Position numbers and translations under genes: made by a program
IMG/VR virus record: IMGVR_UViG_3300025012_000253
Span: 1-27,751 of that record
Length of the DNA stretch: 27,751 bases
Source: a virus
Direction: 5' to 3' (one strand)
The notes under the pieces: model-generated
Seen by the model: only the letters and a program-made list of their open reading frames with translations
What the model was told of the DNA's origin: nothing
Databases searched by the model: none
In this document: positions 20,478 through 23,699 of the stretch, piece by piece
How positions within the stretch are numbered: position 1 is the stretch's first letter
Layout of the letters: each line of letters starts with the position of its first letter

Positions 20478-20499
20478 ATAAATATTTTTCAATGGATTG

Positions 20500-20533
20500 A
20501 ATCTCATTCTTTAATTAGAATGAGATTTTATTG
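20500..20533 (+). terminator. Intrinsic terminator
   Basis: A perfect 11-bp stem AATCTCATTCT / AGAATGAGATT with a 6-base loop and TTTATT after it. It lies immediately before RNA element A and overlaps its first bases. Confidence 0.7.
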
Positions 20534-20630
20534 TGTTGAAAAATCAATGCAATAAACAGGATAGGGTAGCTCCCGAAAGTCGTAATCCTTAACGATTTCC
20601 TGTTTATATACCTTTTAAGGAAACAAATAA
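20529..20630 (+). ncRNA. Structured RNA element A (candidate new family), upstream of ORF6N-nuclease gene
   Basis: P0: TATTGTGTTGA (20529-20539) pairs with TCAATGCAATA (20544-20554), loop AAAA. P1: AAACAGGA (20554-20561) pairs with TCCTGTTT (20598-20605). Inside P1: TA, then P2 GGG/CCC with loop TAGCT, then GA, then P3 AAGTCGT / ACGATTT (20577-20598) with loop AATCCTTA. The L3 bases CCTTA can pair with TAGGG before P2, which allows a pseudoknot. The element ends in ACAAATAA (20623-20630). A second copy with compensatory changes is at 22396. Function unknown: it may be a cis-acting leader controlling the nuclease or a processed RNA. Confidence 0.6.
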
Positions 20631-20652
20631 AATATTAAAGGAGATGTTAAAA

Positions 20653-21513
20653 ATGGAAAATGAAAAAGAATTAGTAATTAATGGAAGCACAATGGTTAAT
20701 GGGATTGAAATACCAAACATATGTGGTGGGTTTAATAAAGACTCAAAAGTTATTCTAGCAAATACTGTATCTAAACTACACGGAAGACCACTAGGAGATA
20801 TTAACGCATTGATAAACAATAACAGATCACATTTTGTTGATGGTATTGATATTTTTAATTTAAAAAATAATAAATATTTAATTAATATACTAATTGATAA
20901 TAAAATTGTTACTAAAAATGCAGTAAACGCTAGTAAATATATATATTTACTTAGTAAATCAGGATATGAAATAATATGTTCAATTTTAGAAAATGCCAAT
21001 AAAGATACTATTGATCAAGTATTTAGGAAATGTTTTAATTCATTTAATACTAATATAATATTTTTAAATAGATATGAAAGTGAATTTAAGAATTTATTAT
21101 TTAGCATATTAGGAAATTTTATAGCAATTAAATGTCAGTTTCCAATTTTACAATATAGAGTAGATTTCTTTATTCCATCATTAAAGTTAATTATTGAAGA
21201 GGGACATATTTATAATAAAGAAAAAGATCATAAAAGAGAAGAAAATATTCAGGAAGAATTTAAAAGATGGCATGTAGAAGATGAATATACAAAAATTAAT
21301 ATATTAAGAATTAATAAAAACAATGAATATGTGGGAATAGGAGAAATTATGAAAATTGCTACATATTACGGTATATTTAAAGAAATGTATATAGGTAGGA
21401 AAGATAGACTTTCTTATGTAGAAAATTTGTATGATTATTTTATGGACTTTTATACAAAAGAATATTGTGATGAAAAGAATATATTCAGGTTAAAATCTAA
21501 TACATACAATTAG
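20653..21513 (+). CDS. ORF6N-like DNA-binding domain fused to a nuclease-like C-terminal domain
   Basis: A 286-residue protein. ATG 20653 lies nine bases after AAAGGAG; ATG 20644 touches that site and is less likely. Residues 1-125 match the pattern of ORF6N/Bro-type phage regulatory proteins (EIPNICGGFNKDSKVILANTV, then GRPLGDINALINNNRSHFVDGIDIF and YLLSKSGYEIICSIL). Residues about 140-250 resemble the C-terminal nuclease seen on some such proteins (YRVDFFIPSLKLIIEEGHIY, then DHKREENIQEEF and INILRINKNNE). The usual E-x-D-x-x-H core is altered: an Asp seems missing between the Glu and the His, so activity is doubtful. It is directly downstream of RNA element A. It may be a mobile element relic or a regulator. 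Confidence 0.55.
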   Translation: MENEKELVINGSTMVNGIEIPNICGGFNKDSKVILANTVSKLHGRPLGDINALINNNRSHFVDGIDIFNLKNNKYLINILIDNKIVTKNAVNASKYIYLLSKSGYEIICSILENANKDTIDQVFRKCFNSFNTNIIFLNRYESEFKNLLFSILGNFIAIKCQFPILQYRVDFFIPSLKLIIEEGHIYNKEKDHKREENIQEEFKRWHVEDEYTKINILRINKNNEYVGIGEIMKIATYYGIFKEMYIGRKDRLSYVENLYDYFMDFYTKEYCDEKNIFRLKSNTYN

Positions 21514-22356: not shown

Positions 22357-22372
22357 TTTTACATAGAATTTT

Positions 22373-22398
22373 AGGCACTAGAAATAGTGTCTTTATTT
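22373..22398 (+). terminator. Terminator after the resolvase
   Basis: An 8-bp stem AGGCACTA / TAGTGTCT (one G-U pair) closed by a GAAA tetraloop and followed by TTATTT. Confidence 0.6.
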
Positions 22399-22492
22399 GT
22401 GTGTAAAAACACAAAGCAGGATAGGGAGAGCTACCCGATAAGCCAATTAGTCCTATTGGTTTCCTGCTTATTGCTTTTTGGAGGACAAATAA
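22396..22492 (+). ncRNA. Structured RNA element B (second copy), upstream of repeat-bearing nuclease gene
   Basis: P0: TTTGTGT (22396-22402) pairs with ACACAAA (22409-22415). P1: AAGCAGGA (22414-22421) pairs with TCCTGCTT (22462-22469). Inside P1: TA, P2 GGG/CCC with an AGAGCTA loop, GA, then P3 AAGCCAAT / ATTGGTTT (22440-22462) with loop TAGTCCT. The L3 bases TCCTA can pair with TAGGG. The element ends in GGACAAATAA. Compared with element A, P1 keeps pairing through an A-T to G-C exchange and P3 has a different sequence but the same shape. The nuclease start codon is 22 bases further on. Confidence 0.6.
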
Positions 22493-22514
22493 TACGAAGG
22501 ACGGTGTTGTGATA

Positions 22515-23699
22515 ATGGCATTAAAAAAGTTTACAGATGAGAAATTAATTGAAATCATGAGGGATTATATCAAGGAGATTGGAATACCTAAATCTAAGGA
22601 TTTTAAAGCAAAGAATGGATTACCTGCTAGTGAATTGTATAGAAAAAGGTTTGGAAGTTGGTATGAATCATTATTGCTTGCAGGAGCAAAAATACCAGAA
22701 GATAGACAAAGATTTTATCAAAATGATAGATTAACAGACGAAAAACTTTTAGACGATTTGAGAATAATTACAGAAATTCATTTAAAAGACAATGTATATT
22801 TATTGAATAGTTCTGATTTTATAAAATATAACACAGTTCAATCTTATTCAGCTTATGAGAGAAGATTTGGAAGTATAGAAAATACATATAAATTAATTGG
22901 ATATGACTATAATATTTTTAATAATAAAGCGTTAGAAAATGATATGTTACTTAAATTAAAAGAAGTAAATAACATATTAGGTAAAACTCCTAATACATAC
23001 GATTTAAACAGTTTTAGTCAAACTAAAGAAGGATATTATAGTGCTAGTGCATATGATCGTCATTTCGGAAATATATCAAATTCATTATTATTAGTAGGAT
23101 TAAAACCGACACAAGGTAGTATTACTAGAAAAATGGATGAAGAAGGATTGATTCAAAGTTTAAAAGACTTTTATGTAAAATATAATAGAATACCATCTCA
23201 ACCAGACACAAATGAAGAGAAAGGTATGCCAGGATATACAACCTATGTTAAAAGGTTTGGTTCTTGGGATACCGCCTTAAAGAAAGCATTTGGTAATAAA
23301 TTTAGACTTAAAAGAGTAGCAAAAGCTATGACCACAAAAGGTGGTAGATTGTGCAAATCTATGTTGGAATATTTATTTGCTACAATGTTAGAGGATCATA
23401 ATATTGACTTTAAATTAGATAAAATATATTACAGAGATTATATTCCTGATTATAAGGGAGGATATAGATTTGATTTTCTATTACATTTAGATGGTAAAGA
23501 TATTTTTATTGAGATATTTGGATTCTTAGGGAAACAATTTAAATCACAAGTTAAATATGCAAGTGATAAGGATACTAAAATAAAGTTATGTAAGGATAAT
23601 GGATTAACTTTATTGTCTTTTTATCCATATCATATTTATAGAAAAACATCAGATAAAATATATGAAATATTTGAAAATAAATTAAAGGAAGTGAAATAA
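22515..23699 (+). CDS. Homing-endonuclease-like protein with four associated repeats and PD-(D/E)XK-like core
   Basis: A 394-residue protein started at ATG 22515 (ribosome site GAAGGACGG). Residues 3-250 hold four units of the homing-endonuclease-associated repeat (PF18780 type), each about 55-65 residues and ending in R-[HKR]-F-G-[SN]-[WI]: YRKRFGSW, YERRFGSI, YDRHFGNI, YVKRFGSW. Such repeats bind DNA in tandem. The C-terminal ~130 residues carry SMLEYLFATMLEDHNI, RFDFLLHLDGKDIFIEIFGF, DKDTKIKLCKDNGLTLLSFYPYH, the order of a PD-(D/E)XK-like nuclease (E, D, E-x-F, K). It is probably a free-standing homing nuclease. It follows RNA element B and is joined to the recombinase gene without a gap. 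Confidence 0.7.
   Translation: MALKKFTDEKLIEIMRDYIKEIGIPKSKDFKAKNGLPASELYRKRFGSWYESLLLAGAKIPEDRQRFYQNDRLTDEKLLDDLRIITEIHLKDNVYLLNSSDFIKYNTVQSYSAYERRFGSIENTYKLIGYDYNIFNNKALENDMLLKLKEVNNILGKTPNTYDLNSFSQTKEGYYSASAYDRHFGNISNSLLLVGLKPTQGSITRKMDEEGLIQSLKDFYVKYNRIPSQPDTNEEKGMPGYTTYVKRFGSWDTALKKAFGNKFRLKRVAKAMTTKGGRLCKSMLEYLFATMLEDHNIDFKLDKIYYRDYIPDYKGGYRFDFLLHLDGKDIFIEIFGFLGKQFKSQVKYASDKDTKIKLCKDNGLTLLSFYPYHIYRKTSDKIYEIFENKLKEVK

Follow-up and report, generated by a model that had tools for sequence, protein, structure and literature searches.

A three-way-junction RNA of the int-alpA family as a probable two-state leader governing translation of accessory and mobile phage genes

A structured RNA that occurs twice in a 27.7-kb virus record from IMG/VR (the window, meaning the whole stretch of DNA analysed) is probably, at odds that we put near three in four, a cis-acting 5' leader that controls the translation of accessory and mobile genes through two alternative states, rather than a trans-acting small RNA. 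Comparison among relatives in phages and bacteria shows a conserved three-way junction, a P3 hairpin loop that covaries both with a strand downstream of the junction (site 1) and with the Shine-Dalgarno sequence of the next gene (site 2), an overlap of these two pairings, and the display of the Shine-Dalgarno sequence by a further hairpin, P4. The RNA family is known, as RF02996 int-alpA, and no function for it is described in the literature searched; the architecture, a second class of P2 hairpin and the mechanism appear to be new. Many phage and prophage genes that are not related to one another are preceded by this layout, and int-alpA RNAs probably act as translational switches. We propose that a single RNA design, adjusted each time through compensatory change, would gate hundreds of unrelated phage genes, chiefly those of homing-type nucleases. 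If true, this would explain how selfish nucleases check their own expression at new sites with little regulation, and would supply a translational switch that is both portable and programmable, with a loop sequence open to free choice.

Anatomy, family identity and distribution

The features of the two copies are listed in Table 1. The region 20529-20630 has a folding energy of -26.0 kcal/mol, compared with -13.9 +/- 2.7 for shuffled versions (z -4.45, 0/200), and its relatives carry compensatory changes, which bears out the structured RNA that a sequence-only reading had placed there. The Rfam covariance-model search proposed in that reading returned RF02996 int-alpA at 20554-20620 (41.2 bits, threshold 35.8) as the sole hit across the whole window. 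The element, which that reading could not match to a class known to it, does belong to a known family, by a kind of match that the reading itself had named as counting against novelty; that it is not a hammerhead, group I or HEARO RNA stands.

Table 1. Features of RNA copies A and B and of their downstream genes in the window
Feature	Position	Strand	Description and basis
Intrinsic-terminator hairpin, copy A	20499-20528	+	Ends upstream transcription unit; 12 pairs plus T tail; shuffles expect 0.1
Leading hairpin, copy A	20531-20552	+	UUGUGUUG-AAAAAU-CAAUGCAA; lineage-specific; fold and window-like relatives
P1 5' strand, copy A	20552-20561	+	Pairs with 20598-20607; fold, relatives
Linkers, copy A		+	UA between P1 and P2; GAA between P2 and P3; refined anatomy
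P2 hairpin, copy A	20564-20574	+	GGG-UAGCU-CCC; stem 20564-20566/20572-20574; self-complementary AGCU in apical loop
P3 hairpin, copy A	20578-20597	+	Stem 20578-20583/20592-20597; 8-nt loop AAUCCUUA, 20584-20591, the putative switching strand
P1 3' strand, copy A	20598-20607	+	Fold, relatives
Site 1, copy A	20615-20621	+	UUAAGGA; pseudoknot partner of P3 loop; complementarity
P4 hairpin, copy A	20631-20648	+	AAUAU-UAAAGGAG-AUGUU; Shine-Dalgarno in loop; pairing by eye
Site 2, copy A	20638-20642	+	AAGGA inside Shine-Dalgarno AAAGGAG; alternative P3-loop partner; complementarity
Gene A, putatively regulated	20653-21513	+	ORF6N domain and a probable nuclease half, DUF559/Vsr-like; another in-frame ATG at 20644
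Leading hairpin, copy B	22396-22415	+	UUUGUGU..ACACAAA
Core, copy B	22414-22469	+	P1 22414-22421/22462-22469; P2 22424-22426/22434-22436
P2 loop, copy B			AGAGCUA
P3 hairpin, copy B	22441-22447/22455-22461	+	Loop UAGUCCU
Site 1, copy B	22482-22486	+	AGGAC
P4 hairpin, copy B	22489-22510	+	7 bp; 8-nt loop GAAGGACG with site 2 AGGAC (22498-22502) and Shine-Dalgarno; pairing by eye
Gene B, putatively regulated	22509-23699	+	HNH_repeat nuclease; start GTG 22509 or ATG 22515

Copy A has the RF02996 layout, P1-UA-P2-GAAAA-P3-P1', followed by a 3' strand complementary to the P3 loop, and in the alignment the 3' AAGG of the Rfam consensus coincides with site 1. Its P1 comprises 10 bp, 8 of which are in the covariance model, and its loop can form seven Watson-Crick pairs with site 1, counting the loop-closing A. 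A model of the window-type class, R1, scores copy A at 70.7 bits and, in agreement with the two copies claimed earlier, detects the second, divergent copy B (30.4 bits, E 2e-8) directly 5' of the HNH_repeat nuclease gene; it finds no further copies in the window. Copy B was not reported by RF02996 at the gathering threshold. The P3 loop differs between the two copies, and in each it fits both sites of that copy.

RF02996 members share with the window-type class the order P1, UA, P2, GAAA, P3 and the 3' AAGG complementary to the loop, and they are recovered by model R1. They differ in that Rfam types them as small RNAs and its model has mostly a GACG-loop P2, whereas the general form described here combines P2 loops that are self-complementary with a site 2 in the Shine-Dalgarno sequence, P4 and downstream nuclease genes. 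Of 27 loci of this class that were tested, the RF02996 model recovers only about 10, and the class is thus broader than the Rfam model; cmscan found no RF02996 match at E 0.1 in the first Vibrio and Pseudoalteromonas loci because of this poor coverage. The name int-alpA refers to a location between integrase and alpA genes, and the family was reportedly described in a 2017 paper. In the window the gene that follows copy A is instead of the ORF6N type, and the one that follows copy B is an HNH_repeat gene; RF02996 hits elsewhere also precede varied genes, and the name is not a structural criterion.

Copy A does lie directly upstream of a gene whose protein has an ORF6N domain of the antirepressor type (E 3e-8), as the sequence-only reading had it; the nuclease half that it also named comes down to sub-threshold Pfam matches (DUF559, E 0.003), and an AlphaFold prediction made without an alignment was uninformative (pLDDT 32). 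A protein-based search of viral contigs found no close relative of the gene A product, and the exact RNA pattern of the window copy alone gave no matches. Within the coding sequence of gene B, the Rfam family cow-rumen-1 matches 23161-23220 (+) with 27.3 bits against a threshold of 53.4, and it was rejected as an RNA of the window for this sub-threshold score and coding location. The cow-rumen-1 consensus CCGGACACGAUCGAAGAGG translates as P-D-T-I-E-E, and the HNH_repeat protein has P-D-T-N-E-E; the family may itself be HNH_repeat coding sequence.

About 190 non-redundant relatives were gathered from phages and bacteria, all of which share P1, UA-P2-GAA and P3, with strong compensatory change. 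Thirty gap-free relatives of equal length served for the covariation test and for model R1. Among them 95.7% of the paired cells of P1, P2 and P3 are complementary, compared with 65.9% after shuffling. Double-sided changes number 150 against a shuffled 42.6 +/- 5.1, with P1 and P3 covarying strongly; P2 is invariant in this set because of how the sequences were fetched. When sampled without the core, P2 also covaries (GUG-AUUGCAA-CAC, GAG-AUGUACA-CUC, GGA-AGUGCAA-UCC, GCUC-GACG-GGGC and others). A three-way junction with a pseudoknotting loop is upheld, and the partner of that loop, formerly sought in the junction, is instead site 1, 3' of P1, or the Shine-Dalgarno sequence.

A blastn search of phages with the RNA gave matches in Vibrio and Pseudoalteromonas phages, at non-coding positions 35-65 nt 5' of genes matching HNH endonuclease families; two of four such cassettes run opposite to the neighbouring genes. 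The 18-mer TAGGKTAGCTCCCGAAAG is present in at least 120 viral contigs and in 90 bacterial genome loci, the bacterial carriers including Proteobacteria, Planctomycetes, Spirochaetes, Fibrobacter and Clostridia. For the proteins encoded downstream at 81 phage loci, each of the 25 most frequent PHROG matches is an endonuclease, and Rha, Bro-N, VapE, SieB and lambda P proteins also occur there. The downstream proteins of the bacterial loci mostly have no Pfam family, with integrases, TIR, DUF6387, Rha and HNH proteins found in ones or twos.

The P3 loop and its two partners

The P3 loop varies among loci, and with it vary its complements at site 1, about 26 nt before the start codon, and in the Shine-Dalgarno region, about 12 nt before it. 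In 92 phage elements the loop scored 13.7 against site 1, compared with 8.15 +/- 0.22 for permuted loops (z 25), and 13.0 against the Shine-Dalgarno region, compared with 9.38 +/- 0.22 (z 17). In 71 separately sampled bacterial elements the corresponding scores were 13.85 versus 9.08 +/- 0.29 (z 16.5) and 12.87 versus 10.28 +/- 0.27 (z 9.7). These elements were non-redundant at 75% identity, which lessens their kinship without abolishing it. When Watson-Crick pairs alone were counted, at least 5 bp were formed with site 1 by 124 of the 159 pooled elements (null 13.6 +/- 3.4) and with the Shine-Dalgarno region by 107 of 159 (null 18.1 +/- 4.0). Start codons were picked by a rule that favours AGGAGG-like sequence and ignores the loop, which makes the permutation test fair, and the permutation of loops between loci rules out chance complementarity arising from look-alike Shine-Dalgarno sequences. 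A prophage variant with a P3 loop of 23-24 nt recurs (loci L021, L053, L087, L089, L103, L114 and L119) and was excluded from the pairing tests.

Fetching by the 18-mer core could make the argument circular, a concern countered by scans that did not use the core. Of the 106 non-redundant hits that patterns of loop, site 1 and Shine-Dalgarno sequence gave, 72 have the junction, and a structural scan gave 265 hits on the loci versus 2 on reversed sequence, a figure that measures specificity only, the loci having been chosen by pattern.

Sites 1 and 2 share at least four loop bases in 126 of 139 elements, and since they use mostly the same bases only one pairing can form at a time. Site 1 is usually the stronger match, site 2 being stronger in 33 of 139, and some family members retain just one of the two sites. 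Judged by complementarity, the P3 loop is coupled to the Shine-Dalgarno sequence of its own gene, and the two pairings are mutually exclusive. The segments that flank site 2 also pair with each other (z 18.8): 78% of 192 elements, versus 21% of shuffles, have a P4 score of at least 10, with the Shine-Dalgarno sequence in a loop of mostly 6-9 nt. The distance from P1 to the start codon is mostly 28-40 nt.

Many elements outside the window lineage have a TATAAT-like (sigma-70-like) -10 box, whose position peaks at -12 relative to the start of P1, and TTGACA-like sites lie 17 nt upstream of that box; from this spacing transcription would start at P1. No sigma-70 promoter was seen before copy A, and no TATAAT box before the elements of the window lineage (loci L303-L365; window 20480-20552 and 22370-22415). 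There a terminator of variable sequence is followed by a UUGUGU..ACACAA hairpin and then by P1. Stems of the UUGUGU type stand at the same position in window-like relatives, often with changed inner pairs. The leading hairpin of the sequence-only reading is therefore real, recurring in copy B with a changed stem sequence, and it is local to this lineage rather than a general part of the RNA.

A proposed two-state leader and its alternatives

In the mechanism that we favour, the loop would pair with site 1 in the ON state, a pairing formed first during transcription and usually the stronger, and the Shine-Dalgarno sequence would stay usable. In the OFF state the loop would pair with the Shine-Dalgarno sequence as a P3-P4 loop-loop contact, and 30S binding would be blocked. 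The balance between the two would set or switch the expression of accessory phage genes, mobile nucleases among them, and might be shifted by a factor or ligand at the junction, by dimerisation through P2, or by folding order alone. The downstream genes have no common function, and thus suggest no effector. In preQ1- and SAM-II-type riboswitches and in the activator pseudoknot of ColIb repZ a hairpin loop likewise pairs with or near the Shine-Dalgarno sequence; the present RNA differs in its two alternative loop partners and in having no known ligand or antisense RNA. Translation of T4-type homing endonucleases (I-TevI, segB, mobE) is limited by ribosome-binding-site hairpins (PMC2988022), which gives the purpose a precedent, in that RNA structure covers the Shine-Dalgarno sequence of a mobile endonuclease. 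Those hairpins are simple and gene-specific, whereas here one conserved junction RNA with a competing decoy site precedes unrelated genes, a combination for which no precedent was found in the literature searched.

Not all of the alternatives exclude the two-state leader, of which a riboswitch, or a switch based on dimers, would be a particular form. Palindromes of at least 4 occur in 16 of the 21 distinct P2 apical loops from the structural scan, which are not fully independent (letter shuffles gave 5.1, and at most 13 among 2000), and palindromes of 6 in 8 of 21 (shuffled 0.75). Without loops of the UAGCU type the count is 11 of 16 (shuffled 3.4, maximum 8); GACG loops do not fit the pattern. 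Self-complementary P2 loops suggest loop-loop RNA dimers, which we treat as a lead. It is conceivable, though doubtful, that this very widespread class of phage and mobile-element leaders is an RNA-only switch that dimerises with itself through palindromic P2 loops, which would make the translation of accessory genes, mobile nucleases among them, depend on how many transcripts are present or on a signal that the junction senses; unrelated selfish genes would then have a layer of regulation in common. A translational riboswitch, with the junction as an aptamer whose ligand selects site 1 or the Shine-Dalgarno sequence, would account for two exclusive pairings around a conserved junction, one of them on the Shine-Dalgarno sequence. 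We consider it unlikely, given the few fixed unpaired bases (UA, GA), the freely variable P2 of the core-free sample and downstream genes that share no pathway.

The RNA could instead stabilise its mRNA, P1 at the extreme 5' end and the pseudoknot shielding the transcript from 5'-dependent decay. Such a role fits the transcription start inferred at P1 and the order of parts, in which a three-way junction is followed, shortly 3' of P1, by the pseudoknot with the P3 loop and then by P4, and flaviviral exonuclease-resistant RNAs may have a similar topology. It would leave unexplained why the loop also matches the Shine-Dalgarno sequence, and we regard this account as improbable. Decidedly improbable is a trans-acting small RNA that ends after P1 and pairs with other mRNAs. 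It agrees with the Rfam entry type (Gene; sRNA) and with a U-tract after P1 in some members, including one RF02996 member with a distant open reading frame (L230). However, a run of five U near the end of P1 is found in just 19 of 159 elements, for which reason intrinsic termination there was also rejected as a general mechanism; moreover, the loop is tuned to the Shine-Dalgarno sequence of its own next gene, and the distance from P1 to the start codon is nearly constant. On these comparisons the Rfam typing is probably wrong for most members.

Nuclease genes adjoin both window copies and many phage copies, as they would for a guide or scaffold RNA of the HEARO/omega-RNA kind, but that reading is highly implausible: the adjoining proteins are unrelated (HNH, GIY-YIG, ORF6N, Rha, TIR, DUF6387, lambda P, SieB), there is no guide segment, the RNA overlaps the translation start signals of the gene itself, its core of about 65 nt contrasts with the long HEARO RNAs that lie beside IscB-type RuvC-HNH proteins, and Rfam gave no HEARO hit in the window. 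A self-cleaving ribozyme with a topology like that of the hammerhead (stem, linker, stem, GAA(A) and a stem closed by an A-U pair) is hardly credible, for although the helix order and the GAA followed by an A-U pair agree, the CUGANGA of the CUGANGA ... GAAA core is replaced by a UA linker, P3 and P1 are continuous in most members with no unpaired nucleotide for an NUH cleavage site, and cmscan reported no hammerhead.

Movement with nuclease genes

In Vibrio phage 1.167 a segment of 825 bp (L003 2979-3803) stands where three sister phages have about 22 bp, and it contains a -10 box, the RNA and an HNH gene; the RNA thus travels with the nuclease. Where Vibrio phage 1.276 has the RNA and an HNH gene, Vibrio phages 1.265, 1.236 and 1.198 (L246, L247 and L248) carry another small reversed gene, and the site is a shared insertion spot for accessory cassettes. 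A second HNH gene of Vibrio phage 1.276 (L004 810-970) has a differing structured leader that is not int-alpA-like, in which the Shine-Dalgarno sequence lies inside a CCUCUC..GAGAGG hairpin.
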